Below are positions 3,416 through 46,224 of a stretch of 64,000 nt of DNA, piece after piece. Position numbers and translations under genes: made by a program. This DNA is from Chitinophaga vietnamensis. Its GTDB lineage: Bacteria; Bacteroidota; Bacteroidia; Chitinophagales; Chitinophagaceae. Position 1 is the stretch's first letter. The number at the start of each line of letters is the position of its first letter. The notes under the pieces are model-generated. The model was not told the DNA's origin. It ran no database searches and saw only the letters and a program-made list of their open reading frames with translations. Location of the stretch: NCBI RefSeq assembly GCF_902167635.1, contig NZ_CABHMS010000003.1, positions 496,001 through 560,000 on the forward strand, written 5' to 3'.

Positions 3416-3545
3416 ATTACGGATTACGAATTAAAATTACGGATTTGTGGGAGGATATTCGCGAAGAAGCCCTTGGAGCACTTTGAGCGCTTCAGGGCTT
3501 CTTCGCGAATATCCTCCCCCTAATTGTTCAATGTAATCCTAATTA
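3416..3545. repeat. Intergenic inverted repeat A (between fbaA and accD)
   Basis: Perfect 25-bp inner arms lie at 3449-3473 and 3494-3518 with a 20-nt loop. The outer part is imperfect, though ATTAATTA and GGATTAC recur on both sides. The left arm is nearly the same sequence as those of repeats E (24758) and F (26695). The core around 3465-3500 resembles the AAGCCCTTGAAGCGCT hairpin family. The right edge overlaps the fbaA stop codon (3543-3545). On the minus strand the order is fbaA stop, repeat, then accD. Confidence 0.9.
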
Positions 3546-4686: not shown

Positions 4687-4868
4687 GACCAGGATTAAAC
4701 GGATTAATAAGATTTTCCTGATTTAAGCTACGAGATCAAAGCGAAGATTAATGATAGCGGATTTAAGCGAAGAAGCCCTTGAAGCGCTTCGAGCGCTTCA
4801 AGGGCTGGAACCTAGTTGATCTTCGTGTTAAATCAGGGTAATCTTATAAATCCGTTTAATCCTGGTCA
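4687..4868. repeat. Intergenic inverted repeat B (between the Rieske gene and fbaA)
   Basis: Outer arms of 39 nt (4687-4725 and 4829-4867, starting GACCAGGATTAAACGGATTA) match with three mismatches. Nested inside is a perfect 15-bp hairpin (4774-4788 / 4792-4806, arm AGCCCTTGAAGCGCT, loop TCG), the core shared with other repeats in the window. The right edge overlaps the Rieske stop codon (4866-4868). Confidence 0.9.
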
Positions 4869-13406: not shown

Positions 13407-13454
13407 TTTTTATTTCTAAAATCCCATATATTCGCATACCACAAATTATTGATG

Positions 13455-13563
13455 AATTTATGGATTTGCAGATTTACGGATTGTATTGATGTTTTGTTGT
13501 TTATCTTCGCAAACTTTACAACAAAACAACCATACAATTCGCAAATCTGTAAATCCATAAATC
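13455..13563. repeat. Intergenic inverted repeat C (between polyprenyl synthase and permease)
   Basis: Arms of about 46 nt (13455-13500 and 13518-13563) match with roughly six differences and enclose a 17-nt loop. The arms are made of GGATTTnCnGATTT-type words also used in repeats I and J. A TTG (13481), 18 nt, TATCTTCG (13502-13509) promoter-like pair lies inside it, so the permease transcript may start in the loop. That last point is tentative. Confidence 0.8.
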
Positions 13564-13576
13564 CAAAAATCCACTT

Positions 13577-17439: not shown

Positions 17440-17856
17440 ATGAATCAAAAAGATGAAAGAACCTGGGGAACGTTCATACACCTGGGAGGTATCGTTGGTA
17501 TGATGATCATACCAGGGGTGGGCAACATCATCGGTGTGCTGATCCTCTGGCTGATCAAACGCAACGAATCCGCATTTGTAGACGATCAGGGCAAGGAAGC
17601 TATCAATTTCCAGATCACGCTCAGCCTGATTTCCGTTCTGCTCGGTATCATCGGCTTTATCTCTTTCGGCTTATGGTCGCTCGGTACGTTCTGGAGCAAC
17701 CGTCACGACATGTTCGATTTTCACTGGGGCTGGAGCTGGATGGGCTTACACGGCATATTGTGGATACTGAACCTGGTATTCTCTATTGTGGGAGCCGTGA
17801 AGGCAAGCAACGGGGTTAGCTACAGATATCCCTTCAGTTTGCGGATCGTAAAATAA
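17440..17856 (+). CDS. DUF4870-type small membrane protein
   Basis: 138 residues with three or four hydrophobic segments. The pattern TWGTFIHLGGIVGMMIIPGVGNIIGVLILWLIKR, then FVDDQGKEAINFQITLSL, is the hallmark of the DUF4870/Tic20-like family. The function of the family is not established. The TAA stop at 17854-17856 is followed with no gap by inverted repeat G. Confidence 0.85.
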   Translation: MNQKDERTWGTFIHLGGIVGMMIIPGVGNIIGVLILWLIKRNESAFVDDQGKEAINFQITLSLISVLLGIIGFISFGLWSLGTFWSNRHDMFDFHWGWSWMGLHGILWILNLVFSIVGAVKASNGVSYRYPFSLRIVK

Positions 17857-17946
17857 TTTAGGGATTTCTTGATTTGGGGATTTTTTGATTTGATCAAATC
17901 AAAAAATCCCTAAATCAAAAAATCCCTAAATCAAAAAATTCCTAAA
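17857..17946. repeat. Intergenic inverted repeat G between convergent genes
   Basis: The repeat is centred on TGATCA at 17891-17896. The left arm holds two copies and the right arm three copies of a 16-nt word (AAATCAAAAAATCCCT or its complement), with few mismatches. It starts on the base after the DUF4870 stop and ends 5 nt before the subtilase stop, filling the whole convergent space. It may act as a two-way terminator, but no classic U-run is present. Confidence 0.85.
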
Positions 17947-17951
17947 TATCT

Positions 17952-24420: not shown

Positions 24421-24757
24421 AATCTGTGAGGAATTATTAATTATATGCACCGCCTTTGCCGCGGTGCGGATCAGTGAATAAACAAATACCATCACTGCTG
24501 AACCGTATGGACATGACACAGCCATTCTCTGATATAAGAGGCCGGTATGCAACAAGATTTACCAAACAAATCATGCTGCCGCACAGTAATTATAAAAAAT
24601 AATTACCACGCAGGTCATACGTATCACAGTAAAAAAATAAGGAAGAGATTCACCTCATGCCTATCATGGCACGTGGGAGCAGGTGCTCCGCAGATAAGAG
24701 AGAAGAGAAAGCTGTATGTTTAACAGGTGATTCATCGAGGAACGAATGTAAAGAAAA
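24421..24757 (-). promoter_or_regulatory. Leader/upstream region of the lysine-degradation operon
   Basis: 337 bp with no convincing gene. It contains a short perfect inverted repeat at 24676-24689 (GGAGCA-GG-TGCTCC) that could be an operator or hairpin. I compared it by eye with lysine and SAM riboswitch consensus and saw no match. No clear TAnnTTTG box was found. Confidence 0.35.
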
Positions 24758-24890
24758 AATTACGAATTGCGAATTAAGAATTACGGATTTGTGGGGAGAT
24801 ATTTGCGAAGAAGCACTTTGAGCGCTTTAAGGGCTTCTTCGCAAATATCTCCCCACAAATCCGTAATTCTTAATTCGCAATTCGTAATTA
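24758..24890. repeat. Intergenic inverted repeat E: 57-bp perfect arms
   Basis: Left arm 24758-24814 and right arm 24833-24889 are perfect reverse complements over 57 bp, with an 18-nt loop (24815-24832). The outer edge overlaps the panB TAA stop (24888-24890). The arm is homologous to those of repeats A and F, but its differences from F occur in both arms. The loop retains part of the AAGCCC...GCGCT core. Confidence 0.96.
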
Positions 24891-25703
24891 ATATTGTTCG
24901 TTTTCGTTCGGAAAATCTTTGGATTTCACATCGTGAATATAGGCCTGTGTGGCGTCGTAGATCTGGGTGTAGAGATCAAGGTAGCGGCGGAGGAAGCGCG
25001 GCTTGAACTCTTTGTTGATGCCCAGCATATCGTGCATCACCAGCACCTGGCCATCCACATATTTACCGGCGCCGATACCGATGATAGGTATCTCCACGAT
25101 TTCTGCTACCTTCTTCGCGAGTTGCGCGGGGATTTTTTCCAGGACGATAGCAAAGCAGCCTGCTTCCTGCAACAGTTTGGCATCGTTGATGAGTTTATTG
25201 GCTTCCGCTTCTTCGGTAGCTCTTACAGCGTAAGTGCCGAATTTGTAGATGGATTGCGGGGTAAGGCCCAGGTGGCCCATTACCGGCACACCCGCGGAGA
25301 TAATGCGTTTCACCGATTCGATGATCTCTTCTCCACCTTCTATCTTGATACCATGTGCACCGGTTTCTTTCATGATGCGGATGGTGGAGTTGAGCGCTTC
25401 CTTGGAATTACCCTGGTAGGAGCCGAAGGGCAGGTCTACGATCACGAAGCAACGCTTGATGGCGCGCACAACAGAGGCAGCATGATAGATCATCTGGTCG
25501 AGCGTGATCGGTAAGGTGGTTTCATGGCCGGCCATCACGTTGGAGGCAGAGTCGCCTACCAGCAATATATCTATGCCGGCATCATCAAAGATGCGGGCCA
25601 TGGAATAATCATAGGCGGTAAGCATAGAGATCTTTTCGCCGTCTACTTTCATCTTCTGCAGTATATGCGTGGTGATGCGCTTGATTTCTTTATTCACTGA
25701 CAT
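24888..25703 (-). CDS. panB: 3-methyl-2-oxobutanoate hydroxymethyltransferase
   Basis: 271 residues from the ATG at 25703 ([15 protein letters not shown]); the longer frame runs into the preceding gene. PanB makes ketopantoate from alpha-ketoisovalerate using methylene-THF, the first step to pantothenate. Family motifs: [19 protein letters not shown], the metal site [22 protein letters not shown], and [10 protein letters not shown]. It is 60 bp downstream of ppx. panC and panD lie about 7 kb away on the same strand. The stop codon lies in the edge of repeat E. Confidence 0.96.
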
Positions 25704-25764
25704 AGCAGTTCCTTTTGCGTTTAGCGCAAAGGTGGCGATATAAACAGTAAAAAGGAAATGTTTT

Positions 25765-26661
25765 TTATGGCTGGCTAACGGTGGCCGCGATCTCTTCATA
25801 CAGCGCATGAATAAGACCATCTGCCAAACCGATCTTCGGCACGTATATCTCCGGCGTATCTGCCCAGCGCATTACATTCACATAGATCTGTAGTGCCGGC
25901 ACAATTACATCTGCACGGTCTTCGCGCAGGTTGTAGAGATGTATGCGTTCTTCTACGGTGAAGCTGCTGAATTCTTTGTAGTAGTCTTTCAGCGTTTCGA
26001 GCGACAAGGGCTTGCCTTCTTTACGTTTGGAGAGCGAGAATATTTTGTTGATGTTACCGCCGGAACCGATGGCGATTACAGGGCCGCTGCCTTTGAGCTG
26101 CGTTTTGAGGAAGTCTTTCATTTGCTGCCAGGCGGCTTCTGTTACCTGGTTGTGCAGGAGCCGGATGGTGCCGATATTGAAGGACTCTTTGAATTTGAGT
26201 TGCTTGTTGCTGAAGAATGTAAGTTCAGTGCTGCCGCCGCCTACATCGATGTAGAGATAGGATTTGGTGGCATCCATATGCTCTGCTACATGGTTCTCAT
26301 AAATGTAAGATGCTTCTTCCTGTCCGGTAATAATCTTGACATCGATGCCGGTCTGGTTCCTTACTTCCTGTAAAATTTCAGGGCCGTTCAAGGCATCGCG
26401 CATGGCTGACGTAGCGCAGGCTTTCAGGTATTTCACTTCGTAAACGTCCAGCAGGAGCTTGTAAGCCTTGATCGTATTGATCAGATGTGTGGCCCTTGAT
26501 TCAGAAATAGTGCTGTTGGCAAACACATCGAAGCCCAGCCTCAGTGGTACCCTTATGAGGTTCACCTTGGTAAAGTCCATGGCGCCTGCACTATTGGGAG
26601 ATGCCTCTGAAATAAGCAACCGGGCAGCATTTGAGCCTATATCTATCGCAGCTAGCTTCAT
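25765..26661 (-). CDS. ppx: Ppx/GppA exopolyphosphatase-family protein
   Basis: 298 residues of the actin-like ASKHA fold. It removes terminal phosphates from polyphosphate or hydrolyses pppGpp. N-terminal [14 protein letters not shown] is the phosphate-1 loop; [15 protein letters not shown] is the phosphate-2 loop; [12 protein letters not shown] follows. It is shorter than E. coli Ppx (about 500) and lacks the C-terminal HD-like domain, as in many short Ppx proteins. It directly follows ppk1 (upstream on the same strand), which supports polyphosphate as substrate. It has its own -7 box at 26684-26691. Confidence 0.9.
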
Positions 26662-26683
26662 CTGATCGTTTTGGTTAAAGAGG

Positions 26684-26691
26684 CAAAAGTA
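26684..26691 (-). promoter_or_regulatory. -7 promoter element of ppx
   Basis: On the minus strand this reads TACTTTTG, a perfect TAnnTTTG box, 23 nt before the ppx ATG. The region where a -33 element would fall is inside inverted repeat F. Confidence 0.55.
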
Positions 26692-26694
26692 TAA

Positions 26695-26828
26695 AAATTA
26701 CGGATTACGAATTAAGAATTACGGATTTGTGGGGAAGATATTCGCGAAGAAGCTCTTGGAGCACTTTAAAGGCTTCATCGCGAATCTTCCCCACAAATCC
26801 GTAATTCTTAATTCGTAATCCGTAATTT
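26695..26828. repeat. Intergenic inverted repeat F (between ppk and ppx)
   Basis: Outer arms are perfect over 45 bp (26695-26739 / 26784-26828). A 2-nt indel (ATATTC versus ATTC) then interrupts, and the pairing resumes with CGCGA and GAAGC. Homologous to repeats A and E. It ends 3 nt before the ppk stop and begins 3 nt after the ppx -7 box. Confidence 0.93.
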
Positions 26829-26831
26829 ATC

Positions 26832-28946
26832 TCAATCATATTTTTTTTCATGGAGATATTTGTATATCTCTACCTGTGTTCTGATCTTTTTATCTCCTTC
26901 TTTCTTATACTCGTTCTTCTGTTCGTTATCAAGAATACGCGCTTTTACGTTACCGCTAAGCTGTATCTGCATGATATCGGCGAGTTCTTTACGTATAGCC
27001 GGATCCGTTATAGGCACGGCCGCTTCTACGCGGTGATCAAGGTTGCGTACCATCCAGTCGCAGGAAGCGATGTACACCTTTTCCTGTCCGCCATGATGGA
27101 AAATGAATACCCTGGCATGTTCCAGGTATTCGTCCACGATGCTCACCGCTGTGATATTTTTCTTCCACTTTTTATTTTCGGTATAGGCGCAGCAGATACC
27201 GCGGATCACCATTTTCACATCTACGCCGGCTTTGGCGGCCTCGTACAGCTTGCCGATCATGATGGCATCGGAAAGGGAGTTCATCTTGATGATGATGCTG
27301 GCCTTCTTCTTATGACGCGCATTCTTGATCTCGCGGTCTATCAGCCGGAGGAAAGTATTGCGCATGTTGAGCGGGCTCACAGGCAGGGTTTTACATCCTT
27401 CCAGGATCTTCACATCATGCCGCGGACTTTCGAGGTACGCGAAGATACGGTTGATATCTGCGATGATAGTGCGGTTGGTGGTGAGCAGGCAATGATCGCC
27501 ATATACGCGGGCTGTTCTTTCGTTGAGGTTGCCGGTGCTTACAAAACCGCACTGGATGGTTTTGGTGCCGATCCGTTTTTTGATCACGCAGAGCTTCGCG
27601 TGCACTTTCATATCCGGGATGCCGAGGAACACTTTCACGCCTTCTTCTTCGAGCCTGGATTTCCATTCCAGGTTGGCCGCTTCATCAAAGCGGGCGCGCA
27701 GTTCCAGCACCACGGTAACAGACTTGCCGTTGCGGGCGGCATTCACCAACGCATTCACGATCTTGGAATTACGGGCAAGCCTATACGCAGTTATTTTGAT
27801 AGACGATACATTGGGATCGATGGCCGCTTCACGCAGCAGGTCGATGATGGTATCGAAAGAATGGTAGGGGAAATGCAGCATCACATCCTGTTGCTGTACC
27901 ACGTGCATCACGCTGGGGGCATTCAGGAAAAGCGGATGGATAAAGGTTTTGCGGTGCAGGTGTGGCGGGAAGATGGATTCCGGAAAATCCATGAAGTCTT
28001 TGAAATTGTGGATACGCGCGCCGGGGATCAGGTTATCCTTGCCGGATAAGCCCTGGCGCCGCATCAGGTATTCCAGCAGCAGCGGGTCGATATCTTTGTC
28101 GTATACAAAGCGTACCGGCTTGCCTTTGCGGCGGTCTTTCAGCCCCTTCTCGATCTGGTGGATCAGGCTGTCGGAGATATCGTTATCGATATCCAGCTCC
28201 GCATCACGTGTTACTTTGATGATGTGGGCAGAAAATTTATCATAGCCGAAATAGGAGAATACATTTGGTAAACAGAAGCGGATCAGGTCTTCCAGCAGGA
28301 TGATATCATGCTCGCCTTCCTTGGCCGGCAGTACAATGAAGCGGGGCAGCACGGTGGTCGGGATCTCTATCAGCGCAAATTTCTGTCGTACGGAGTTGTC
28401 CTGCCGCGCCAGTACTACCGCAAGATAAATGGATTTATCACGCAGGATAGGGAACTGCTGGATACTTTCGATCATCAGCGGAATGATGGCTGTGCGCACC
28501 TGTTCATTGAAGTAGTTGAGCACAAACTTTTGCTGTTCCTTGTTCAGTTGTTTTTCAGTCCGGAGGAAGATATGCTGGGCTTCCATCTCCGCCACGATAT
28601 CTTTCCATACCCTGTCAAACTCGCGCTGTTGCTCGATTACAGTGCTTTGTATCTCGTCCAGTATTTTATCGGGGTTCTCTTCGAGATGCATTTTGGCAGA
28701 TTTGCCGAAAGACATCATGCGTTTGAGTGTAGCCACCCTTACGCGGAAAAATTCATCGAGGTTGTTGGAGAAGATGCCGAGAAAGCGGATCCTTTCATGG
28801 AGGGGAACAGTAACGTCAGCGGCTTCCTGCAGCACCCTGGCGTTGAAGGCCAGCCAGCTGATATCCCGGGCGATCATCTTCTTTTTGGCTACGGGCGCCT
28901 TTTTCCGGGTCGCTTTCTTTTGTGGTATAACAGCGGGTAATGTCAT
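26832..28946 (-). CDS. ppk1: Polyphosphate kinase 1
   Basis: 704 residues from the ATG at 28946 (MTLPAVIPQKK); an ATG at 28982 would add 12 residues but nearly coincides with a promoter-like TTAGTTTG. PPK1 reversibly makes polyphosphate from ATP. The N-terminal domain starts at ARDISWLAFNARVLQEA; NLDEFFRVRVATLKRM follows. The phosphorylated His is in the phospholipase-D-like HAKLCVIKKR, with a second site near VYIASCDWMVRNLDHRVE. A lysine-rich lead (KKATRKKAPVAKKK) precedes the domain. Paired with ppx downstream. Confidence 0.94.
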   Translation of the reverse strand: MTLPAVIPQKKATRKKAPVAKKKMIARDISWLAFNARVLQEAADVTVPLHERIRFLGIFSNNLDEFFRVRVATLKRMMSFGKSAKMHLEENPDKILDEIQSTVIEQQREFDRVWKDIVAEMEAQHIFLRTEKQLNKEQQKFVLNYFNEQVRTAIIPLMIESIQQFPILRDKSIYLAVVLARQDNSVRQKFALIEIPTTVLPRFIVLPAKEGEHDIILLEDLIRFCLPNVFSYFGYDKFSAHIIKVTRDAELDIDNDISDSLIHQIEKGLKDRRKGKPVRFVYDKDIDPLLLEYLMRRQGLSGKDNLIPGARIHNFKDFMDFPESIFPPHLHRKTFIHPLFLNAPSVMHVVQQQDVMLHFPYHSFDTIIDLLREAAIDPNVSSIKITAYRLARNSKIVNALVNAARNGKSVTVVLELRARFDEAANLEWKSRLEEEGVKVFLGIPDMKVHAKLCVIKKRIGTKTIQCGFVSTGNLNERTARVYGDHCLLTTNRTIIADINRIFAYLESPRHDVKILEGCKTLPVSPLNMRNTFLRLIDREIKNARHKKKASIIIKMNSLSDAIMIGKLYEAAKAGVDVKMVIRGICCAYTENKKWKKNITAVSIVDEYLEHARVFIFHHGGQEKVYIASCDWMVRNLDHRVEAAVPITDPAIRKELADIMQIQLSGNVKARILDNEQKNEYKKEGDKKIRTQVEIYKYLHEKKYD

Positions 28947-29066
28947 AATGTTTTCCAGGTTCTCACCATTCTGCAAACGCATACAAACTAATTTACATTC
29001 AAAATATTCACATCATTGAAGATACGATGTTACATTTTTAGATGAACATATCGTATTAAATTAAAG

Positions 29067-30476
29067 TTAATGAATTGTCGGCTGTTTTTTAAACTTATAA
29101 AGCAAATACAGGAGCACAAAGAGGAACAGGGGGATCACCTGGAAGCGGAAGCGCATATTTTCGCCCAGTTCCAGCAGGTTGCCTATGAGCAGGAAGAACA
29201 GGATATTGAAGGCGGCATAGCTCACCGCGGTTTCCTGCCAATGCCAGCCGGTGGCGGATTTCCGCCGGCGGTATAACTGTAACGCCAGTACGGAAAACGC
29301 CAGCGCATAAAGCAGGGCCAATACGGCGCTGGACACGAAAACATAATTTTTGTAGATAGGGTGTTGCCCCAGGTTGAACAATTTCGTATAGCCGGCGATC
29401 TTGTTGCGATTAGCGGCCAGGTGAAAGTATTCGCTGGCAGGCGCGAAGTACAGCGCATGGGCGGTCATCACCAAGCTTGCATAGTTACGCGGATGCGCCT
29501 TCAGTTCAGCCAGGGAGGCGGCTTTGAAGCGCTGCGCGATCCAGATGCATTGAAGGTGGTTAAGGTTACAGGTGCCATCGGGCTTGGTCGCTTCGTGCAA
29601 TGCAGGAATATCGGGGTAGCGGGCGTCTGCCGGCAGCCAGGGGGCATAGTCGCTCACACAGTGAAAAGGGCCAATCGCCGCAATATGCCGCGTAGTATCA
29701 TCTTTAACAGCCAGCGGCGCCGATTTCGACACCGGCAGCATGATGCGTGAGATGTTCATGCCCATCCAGGTGGAACCGGTAAATTCGCCAAAGAGATAAT
29801 CGTTCTTACCATACCATCCCGCTACCACCAGTAATGGGAAAATGGCTGCCAGCAAGGTTTTCCGCCACAGCGCCTTTTGCAGGAAGCATAAAAGCAACAC
29901 TACCAGCAGTATCCAGCCCAGGTGGAACATGCTTACCGTAAGGCTCAGCATTGCCAGCAGGCCGAATAACGCGCACGCCCACACGAATTTTTCTGTTTGC
30001 AGGTAGCGTATCAGGCACCACATGGACCACGACAGCCCACACATGGCCATCATGGCGTAAAAATACCAGCTTTCATACAGCAGGAAAGCGGGGGAGATGC
30101 AGCAATAAGCCGCAATGGCGGCCGCCAGCCAGCGGCGCGTACAGAGCTCATACAGGGAGCGGTACAGCAGCCAGGTTTGCAGGAAGCCCATCAACATAAA
30201 CAGGTACTCCAATGCCAGCGCATAATGTACGGGAAAGCATTTCAAGGCAAGGCCCGTGAGCAGGTTGAAGAGCGGCGGCTGGCTATGCAGGTACCAGAGA
30301 CTTTGCAGCAGCCTATGTTGCAATAGCTCCGGTGAAAGCAGCTGCCAGCCCATATGCACATGGGCCGCATCAAAAGTGATATGAAAAAAATACCTGACAA
30401 TAAACCGGCTCAACAAAGTAAGCAGCAACAGGAAAACGAAAACGGGGCGATGTAGGCTAGGTATAAGCGGGCGCAT
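29067..30476 (-). CDS. Polytopic GT-C-fold membrane protein (PMT/ArnT-like)
   Basis: 469 residues with about 10-12 membrane helices. The long periplasmic-type C-terminal loop (about 255-335) and the early acidic loop (HITFDAAHVHMG, near residue 35) resemble lipid-linked GT39/GT83 glycosyltransferases. HSQPPLFNLLTGLAL matches the QPPLF word common in this group. The substrate is unknown, and the family call is by topology rather than a full motif. It starts directly at the edge of inverted repeat H. Confidence 0.65.
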   Translation of the reverse strand: MRPLIPSLHRPVFVFLLLLTLLSRFIVRYFFHITFDAAHVHMGWQLLSPELLQHRLLQSLWYLHSQPPLFNLLTGLALKCFPVHYALALEYLFMLMGFLQTWLLYRSLYELCTRRWLAAAIAAYCCISPAFLLYESWYFYAMMAMCGLSWSMWCLIRYLQTEKFVWACALFGLLAMLSLTVSMFHLGWILLVVLLLCFLQKALWRKTLLAAIFPLLVVAGWYGKNDYLFGEFTGSTWMGMNISRIMLPVSKSAPLAVKDDTTRHIAAIGPFHCVSDYAPWLPADARYPDIPALHEATKPDGTCNLNHLQCIWIAQRFKAASLAELKAHPRNYASLVMTAHALYFAPASEYFHLAANRNKIAGYTKLFNLGQHPIYKNYVFVSSAVLALLYALAFSVLALQLYRRRKSATGWHWQETAVSYAAFNILFFLLIGNLLELGENMRFRFQVIPLFLFVLLYLLYKFKKQPTIH

Positions 30477-30596
30477 TATTTTGATATTTTGCTATTTTGT
30501 TATTTGGATATTTCGCCTCGAAGAAATATTTCCCGAATGCTAAATAACAAAATATCCGATTAACAAAATATCCAAATAACAAAATATCAAAATAAT
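30475..30596. repeat. Intergenic inverted repeat H, AT-rich with 16-nt units
   Basis: The outer arm ATTATTTTGATATTTTG (30475-30491) is matched at 30580-30596, and an inner 14-bp arm at 30500-30513 is matched at 30566-30579. The right side consists of three 16-nt units (AATAACAAAATATCCg type), the left of two. It fills the space from the membrane protein's ATG to near the stop of the YbhN-like gene. Confidence 0.8.
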
Positions 30597-30603
30597 CAAA
30601 TAG

Positions 30604-32045: not shown

Positions 32046-32150
32046 GGAATATTTGAGGATTTTTTGATTTACGGATGTGAGAATTTACGGCGCACTTCAG
32101 CTTGGCCATAAATTCTCACATCCGTAAATCAAAAAATCCTCAAATATTCC
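32046..32150. repeat. Intergenic inverted repeat I: 42-bp perfect arms (between panC and panD)
   Basis: Left arm 32046-32087 and right arm 32109-32150 are perfect reverse complements over 42 bp, with a 21-nt loop. The last two codons and the TGA stop of panC (32140-32142) lie inside the right arm. Words such as GGATTTTTTGATTTACGG are shared with repeats G and J. Confidence 0.96.
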
Positions 32151-45828: not shown

Positions 45829-45840
45829 ATCGGTTAAATT

Positions 45841-46224
45841 TAGGAATGTGAGGATTTATGGATTTCTTGATTGGTGGCGGGCTTCGACCCTTCACAATCA
45901 AGAAATCCGTAAATCAAAAAATTCTCACATATTCATTTAGGAATGTGAGGATTTACGGATTTCCTGATTGGTAGTGGGCTTCAGTCCCTCGCAATCAAGA
46001 AATCCGTAAATCAAAAAATTCTCACATATTCATTTAGGAATGTGAGGATTTACGGATTTCCTGATTGGTAGTGGGCTTCAGTCCCTCGCAATCAAGAAAT
46101 CCGTAAATCAAAAAATTCTCACATATTCATTTAGGAATGTGAGGATTTACGGATTTCCTGATTGGTAGTGGGCTTCAGTCCCTCGCAATCAAGAAATCCG
46201 TAAATCAAAAAATTCTCACATATT
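45841..46224. repeat. Tandem array J: four 97-bp units, each an inverted repeat
   Basis: Units start at 45841, 45938, 46035 and 46132, an exact 97-bp period. Units 2-4 are the same by eye; unit 1 differs at about ten positions, mostly in the loop. Each unit folds: GATTTACGGATTTCCTGATTG pairs with CAATCAAGAAATCCGTAAATC (one mismatch) around a loop with TGGGCTTCAGTCCC, and ATGTGAG pairs with CTCACAT outside. The array fills the gap between the giant esterase stop (46216-46218, inside unit 4) and the Wzc start. There are no variable spacers, so it is not CRISPR. Confidence 0.96.

Follow-up and report, generated by a model that had tools for sequence, protein, structure and literature searches.

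It has long been debated whether paired changes in a stem arise by slow compensatory selection or by DNA being copied in one step, and covariation between the halves of a stem is routinely taken as proof of RNA function. Two homologous palindromes, E and F, raise this question in a 64,000-nt stretch of Chitinophaga DNA that was analysed as a whole (G000:C3:496001-560000, hereafter the window). The initial annotation of the window had proposed that RNA selection tolerant of G-U pairs would not by itself keep such arms identical, and that template-switch correction of quasi-palindromes, or a dedicated mechanism, would. The comparisons described below indicate that, most likely, the arm halves keep matching because DNA copying repeatedly templates one half on the other.

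Elements E and F and their relatives in the genome

Element E (24758..24890, no strand assigned) is a class A palindrome of AATTACG words with the core GATTTGTGGGGAGATATTTGCGAAGAAGC, its end lying over the stop codon of a panB-like gene that ends in it (24888..25820, minus strand; ketopantoate hydroxymethyltransferase, PF02548). Its paralogue, element F (26695..26828, likewise unstranded), sits between the upstream ppk gene (26832..28982, minus strand; polyphosphate kinase with four PP_kinase domains) and a downstream ppx-like gene (25765..26661, minus strand; Ppx-GppA, PF02541), 3 nt behind the ppk stop codon and 33 nt before the ppx start. The arms of E span 66 nt, gap-free and 95% complementary, with the outer 57 nt perfect as the initial annotation had stated, and our own stem finder pairs 60 of 61 arm positions. 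The 45-bp perfect arms ascribed to F are also present (45/45 arm positions paired, with 44 nt separating the arms), but the perfection is confined to the outer 45 nt because a 2-nt indel and a single mismatch separate its inner arms. The two elements are homologous, as had been proposed, at 89% over 132 bases. Alignment of left arm with left arm and of right arm with right arm returns the identical two substitutions and one-base indel in both cases, and a fourth difference, TTTGCG versus TTCGCG, is read further inward in both arms, so that all four differences originally noted are borne out. A third close copy (C1:142379-142522), paired at 63/63 positions, has F's variants. The minus-strand RNA of 24750-24900 is predicted to fold with -98.4 kcal/mol (z = -21). 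Rfam at gathering thresholds matched only RNase P in the window, and E and F thus correspond to no listed RNA family.

The whole of contig C3 (731,785 bases) and 120 kb of C1, the parts of the latter picked by matches to E, were scanned for ungapped stems with arms of at least 22 nt. The scan returned 81 elements, 61 of them in C3, where arms range from 22 to 105 nt; at the same arm length, Markov controls (order-3 contig and order-3 intergenic models, three runs each, and one run of an order-5 intergenic model) yielded 0 stems against the 61 real ones in C3. If the C3 density holds, extrapolation gives about 530 long palindromes per 6.3-Mb genome. The elements fall into word families, assigned by reading of the sequences and not formally: AATTACG 7-mers (E and F), GATTT plus 3, GATT plus 5, GCAAAG plus 2, TATTT plus 3, and others. 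An arm stretch is common to another element at a score of at least 40 in 67/81 elements. Around ppx, 44 Chitinophaga loci (300,529 bases) hold 17 stems with arms of at least 25 nt, and 36 loci filed under other genera (240,474 bases) hold 5, with L223 among them being of the same genus. The longest perfect arms, 113 nt around a 53-nt spacer, lie near ppk, in L190 at 327 (C. niastensis) and L020 at 1104.

Several of these palindromes, none assigned to a strand, accompany E and F in the window. A decayed, E-like class A element (3430..3537) is 82% paired over 44 nt, its decay being partial, with perfect inner 25-nt arms; a GATT-plus-5 palindrome (4687..4867) has 40-nt arms, 37/40 paired, around a 101-nt spacer. 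GATTT-plus-3 palindromes lie at 13448..13570 (85% paired over 53 nt), 17856..17947 (arms containing tandem 16-nt units) and 32046..32150 (45/46 paired), and a TATTT-plus-3 palindrome at 30475..30602. At 45838..46224, about four 97-nt GATTT-plus-3 hairpins form a tandem array at the end of a gene for a 2335-aa fn3/Ig-domain protein with a C-terminal sorting domain; the array is directly 3' of the gene, and its hairpins run head-to-tail with 97% matches, the first unit being the most divergent.

With the arms of the 81 elements written outside-in, the own partner is the best-scoring arm for 139/162 arms; for the other 23, which include one arm of the E relative at C3:481719, it ties with or scores below other arms. 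The claim that arms within a copy are more alike than copies are to each other therefore usually applies. In family A (11 elements, 483 cells), 64 non-consensus letters occur in both arms versus 6 that are unshared, i.e., in one arm only or different between arms; in family C (17 elements, 864 cells), 87 departures from the consensus occur in both arms versus 19 unshared. One family A element, C1:610917-611050, is paired at 64/64 positions, and its arms extend past the family module into sequence absent from the other ten, as outward copying would leave them.

Paired arm changes, spacer inversions and slot replacement between species

For a comparison of orthologues, syntenic blocks were taken from ten relatives, and stems with arms of at least 18 nt were matched via flanking DNA, those without an orthologous place being dropped. 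Six close species pairs, 90-95% identical around ppk, gave 86 orthologous sites; 36 directed comparisons that fell short of 0.8 in arm coverage or 0.75 in identity were rejected, and 189 pairs adjoining gaps and 107 pairs unpaired in the first species were left out of the pair counts. Among 1951 paired positions, 1744 show no change, 153 a one-sided and 54 a both-sided change. Under independence, 8.7 both-sided changes are expected when pooled and 14.5 when computed site-wise, so the observed 54 represent a 6.2-fold and a 3.7-fold excess, respectively, in a set of stems that were detected by pairing and are hence biased towards paired states. Watson-Crick pairing is kept in 48 of the 54, and 32 of the 86 sites have at least one double. 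For the 26 sites with arms of at least 30 nt, 32 doubles (27 Watson-Crick) stand against 6.1 to 9.2 expected, and a control with partners slid by 4 and 9 positions gave 25 doubles in 2702. The test on close relatives that the initial annotation had called for thus comes out in favour of paired change. Independent divergence of orthologous arms, which it had named as the opposing outcome, is found in one respect only: arms do diverge singly (153 one-sided versus 54 both-sided changes), which implies that correction lags mutation, but they do so much less independently than chance predicts.

The kinds of change are informative about the route. If RNA-hairpin selection were at work, one arm would mutate, the resulting G-U pair would survive, and a second mutation would restore the Watson-Crick pair. 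Among the 48 Watson-Crick doubles, 26 are transversions and 22 transitions, and the transversions speak against the G-U route because no single G-U intermediate bridges a transversion; at G018:117752, compared with G019, one T-A pair is exchanged for A-T in both arms. The transversion share is 0.54 in Watson-Crick doubles, 0.42 in singles and 0.36 in flanks. Doubles and singles do not differ significantly (p 0.18); G-U bridging predicts a clearly lower share in doubles, and the observed share is just not lower. Selection on an RNA helix should also favour G-U mismatches. With the RNA sense set by flanking co-directional genes, C3 stems show 30 G-U, 23 A-C and 27 other mismatches in 1709 pairs, and stems of the ten relatives show 30, 42 and 31, respectively, in 2137 pairs; over these co-directional stems there is no G-U excess over A-C (60 versus 65). 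One subset leans the other way, family C with 13 G-T, 2 A-C and 4 other arm mismatches on the contig plus strand, but the transcription-oriented co-directional GATT-plus-5 elements of C3 show 9 G-U and 6 A-C. The proposal that G-U tolerant RNA selection alone would be insufficient is upheld by both the transversions and the G-U counts.

Spacers were compared in eight species pairs where both species have a stem, those longer than 250 nt being excluded and uncounted. The spacer is under 12 nt in 34 comparisons, without recognisable homology in 20, in the same orientation in 16 and inverted in 8, i.e., inverted in 8/24 comparisons with homologous spacers. The eight inversions amount to seven distinct sites, since one was counted against two relatives, and two of the seven are weak (z 4.6 and 5.1). 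Inverted spacers span 24 to 108 nt; the largest are at two sites in G045/G061 (90-108 nt), and the flipped cases include arms of 26-47 nt around spacers as short as 24-27 nt.

Slots with arms of at least 28 nt were followed in 71 directed comparisons. A z-score cut classed 56 as homologous, 52 of which hold a long stem, and 15 as not homologous; an earlier homology cut, which had called 28/71 non-homologous, was abandoned as too strict for diverged words. The 15 non-homologous slots hold another long stem in nine cases (two of them also with an ordinary terminator), a terminator only in two and neither in four. The slot at G018:226670 carries a GCAAAG-type palindrome in G018, an AAAGC-type palindrome in G078 and an ordinary terminator in G019. 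Eight pairs with a shorter non-homologous counterpart, read by eye, show no clear target-site duplication. Between G061:250472 and G045 (joined-block coordinates) the hairpin core looks conserved and the outer arms consist of different words, so that the two parts may be swapped independently. Between G061:270249 and G045:261831 (joined-block coordinates), a 7-nt AATTACG unit sets one arm apart, and a variant unit is shifted by one place; this site seems minisatellite-like, with slippage and palindrome upkeep acting on one array. Judged by sequence comparison, then, the arms change jointly more often than expected under independence, transversions included, spacers flip, and a palindrome can occupy a slot where a close relative has a different hairpin with no recognisable homology to it.

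Gene-end position and the SbcCD nuclease

Gene calls from a simple codon-usage script, not from annotation, place 32 C3 stems in co-directional, 22 in convergent and 5 in divergent regions and 1 in coding sequence, against a background of 149, 41 and 67 co-directional, convergent and divergent regions of at least 60 nt. Convergent regions are enriched (Fisher p 0.0005) and divergent ones depleted (5/59 versus 67/257 in the background; p 0.003). The stems of the ten relatives are similarly placed (65 co-directional, 26 convergent, 8 divergent and 3 coding; background 436, 113 and 182), with p 0.01 for the convergent enrichment and p 0.00006 for the divergent depletion. Co-directional stems begin at a median of 2 nt after the stop codon in C3 (22/32 within -5 to +10) and 8 nt in the relatives (31/65 within the same range). 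In short intergenic regions of the relatives, long stems occupy 52/384 co-directional, 49/120 convergent and 8/136 divergent regions, and ordinary terminators, called by our own simple rule, occupy 81/332, 37/71 and 3/128 of the remaining regions; both rank convergent, co-directional, divergent. The T frequency behind 33 co-directional stems is 0.24-0.36 at positions 1-6, with no enrichment in these first six positions, and 0.58, 0.45 and 0.42 at positions 7-9. A simple terminator scan called neither E nor F. The motif TAnnTTTG, which we take to be a promoter motif, occurs within 40 nt behind 2/33 stems, which is nothing general. We infer that the hairpins act as, or replace, two-way transcription terminators. 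They resemble intrinsic terminators in their position behind stop codons and orientation preference, and two sites lack the long stem in a relative and carry an ordinary terminator there; unlike those of intrinsic terminators, their stems are several times longer, AT-rich at the base and without T enrichment at positions 1-6 behind them.

At E 1e-3, no sbcD is detected in the own genome by the model TIGR00619, which matches 13/14 control genomes, 8 of them over its cut-off. The sbcC model gives a sub-threshold match of 21.5 bits, which tells little because just 1/14 controls passes the sbcC cut-off. Across the genus, sbcD is over the cut-off in 24/79 genomes, including G009 with a stop inside the match, where six genomes with weak matches only are counted as lacking it; its absence from the other 55 of the 79 species genomes, at this cut-off, is a patchy absence of a widespread nuclease. 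None of the eleven genomes read in long blocks has an sbcD match. At least 10 pattern matches are found in 20/55 genomes without sbcD versus 1/24 with it (p 0.0022), and at least 5 in 20 without and 2 with (p 0.013), in counts that cover three word families, include overlapping matches and are uncorrected for ancestry. The pattern-rich exception is G081, assembled in 570 contigs, in which two sbcD matches run almost the full length of the model. In a tree of 58 genomes both sbcD and pattern richness are clumped, and the association is confounded by ancestry. Eleven genomes that form one clade, none with sbcD over the cut-off, have one pattern match in total, so sbcD absence is insufficient by itself; it may permit palindromes and does not alone produce them. 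At the locus level, stems in 17 loci with sbcD and 41 without show no significant association (p 0.195, 0.089 and 0.093 for arms of 25, 30 and 40 nt). In E. coli, a recA mutant that carries an interrupted palindrome of 246 bp is killed by SbcCD expression, and growth is unimpeded with an 85-bp one (PMC3315005); by analogy, and not as proof, these sizes would fit those found here.

Competing explanations and known systems

Template-switch correction, which the initial annotation had offered as the means of arm upkeep, accords with the 3.7- to 6.2-fold excess of paired changes over independence and with the inverted spacers of orthologues. During replication, a nascent strand would fold back on, or cross to, the opposite arm and copy there; a mutation in one arm would then be erased or copied into the other, and a switch spanning the centre would invert the spacer. 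Loss of the SbcCD hairpin nuclease would let palindromes reach sizes that are unstable elsewhere. Paired changes, the lack of a G-U excess and spacer inversions are footprints of template switching and thus support this interpretation. A dedicated mechanism of arm upkeep is not needed, and one may still operate. Taken together, template-switch upkeep of gene-end palindromes, spacer flips, a putative terminator role and a putative release of size by SbcCD loss probably constitute the joint explanation.

Homologous recombination, that is, gene conversion between arms or sister copies instead of polymerase switching, would likewise homogenise arms and invert spacers. Spacers as short as 24-27 nt between arms of 26-47 nt have been flipped, however, and repeats this short and close are ill suited to RecA-type crossing-over inside a single molecule, which makes recombination an unlikely source. 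Another reading holds that the copies are born perfect, by a mobile palindrome or hairpin-primed insertion, and that their youth makes them look concerted without in-place correction. The dispersal of the word families, with 67/81 elements sharing an arm stretch, and the 15/71 orthologous slots that are not recognisably homologous would agree with this; however, 56/71 slots are homologous, paired changes and flipped spacers are seen among homologous orthologues as well, and no RAYT-type transposase is needed, so we regard birth in perfect form as quite unlikely. An origin from RAYT transposases was discarded, as the search for Y1_Tnp (PF01797) gave a single hit in the own genome and hits in 2/18 other genomes of the genus that were searched, with none in the pattern-rich G011 and G018.

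RNA-hairpin selection draws plausibility from the gene ends, where stop-codon position and the convergent and co-directional preference suggest a functional transcribed hairpin, and from the 22/48 doubles that are transitions and the 13 G-T versus 2 A-C mismatches of family C. It is already weakened by the 26/48 transversion doubles and the nearly equal G-U and A-C counts; the arms, moreover, exceed by far what a terminator needs and are paired out to their AT-rich ends, and spacer inversions are unaccounted for. Selection alone is not supported, and as the explanation of matching arms it appears very improbable. Palindromes are known trouble spots for sequencing, and fold-back chimaeras in the assemblies might mimic the stems. 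This artefact was dropped because homologous stems occur at the same sites in independent assemblies of separate species; with species-specific changes and elements that respect gene ends, it deserves next to no credence.

Template switching accounts for the maintenance of the palindromes and not for the spread of word families between sites. A tentative and rather doubtful extension is that the gene-end hairpins of SbcCD-less Chitinophaga are transposase-free interspersed repeats which template switching perfects, extends, flips and ectopically rewrites. Ectopic switching at shared short words would rewrite palindromes, and gene 3' ends would be continuously replaced while the hairpin slot persists. 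Chitinophaga offers a natural assay for the question of how paired changes arise: the own genome has dozens of stems per 732 kb, species pairs close enough for comparison show transversions in both arms and flipped spacers, and sbcD is present in some species and absent from others. If template switching does maintain these arms, covariation in long bacterial hairpins could not be read as a sign of RNA function before G-U excess and transversions have been tested for.

Among the titles and abstract openings searched, there was no account of such elements in Chitinophaga; the searches extended to little of the subscription literature, so an earlier description is possible. In the passages checked, a Chitinophaga genome paper uses 'palindromic' for CRISPR only, and a term search did not find Chitinophaga in the text of a survey of inverted repeats across all bacteria. 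REP/BIME elements with RAYT transposases are likewise dispersed extragenic palindromes, whereas the elements described here have much longer arms, several word families and no tie to a Y1 transposase. The BrickBuilt MITE of Porphyromonas is also an intergenic repeat with tandem units and inverted-repeat ends, but has a 23-nt tandem unit, small inverted ends and no single large palindrome (PMC4596501). Nematomorph mitochondria also contain long inverted repeats, perfect and of up to 284 bp, for which template switching is named as a possible cause; theirs, unlike ours, are mitochondrial and lie within protein genes (PMC6649704).

Template switching between the arms of inverted repeats is itself a known process (PMC7202029, PMC8604942, PMC8794818). 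In E. coli reporters with an 18-bp quasipalindrome, one arm is copied from the other during replication, which improves the match between the arms of an imperfect inverted repeat (PMC7202029), whereas the present arms are natural, reach 105 nt (113 in a relative) and are followed in many species over evolutionary time. Saccharomyces strains show arm homogenisation together with spacer inversion at short repeats in coding DNA (PMC8604942); matched arms and inverted spacers are both found here, but in long, nearly all intergenic palindromes with inverted spacers of 24 to 108 nt. For rRNA genes, PMC8794818 describes template switching that creates and maintains RNA hairpins, with both stem halves changed as single events and with loop inversions, as in our stems; those stems are just a few bases long and most of their loops have four bases, whereas here dispersed intergenic families with long arms are involved. 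Against this background, what seems new is the scale across a genus, the gene-end slot, the palindrome-by-palindrome replacement between close species and the spacer flips.
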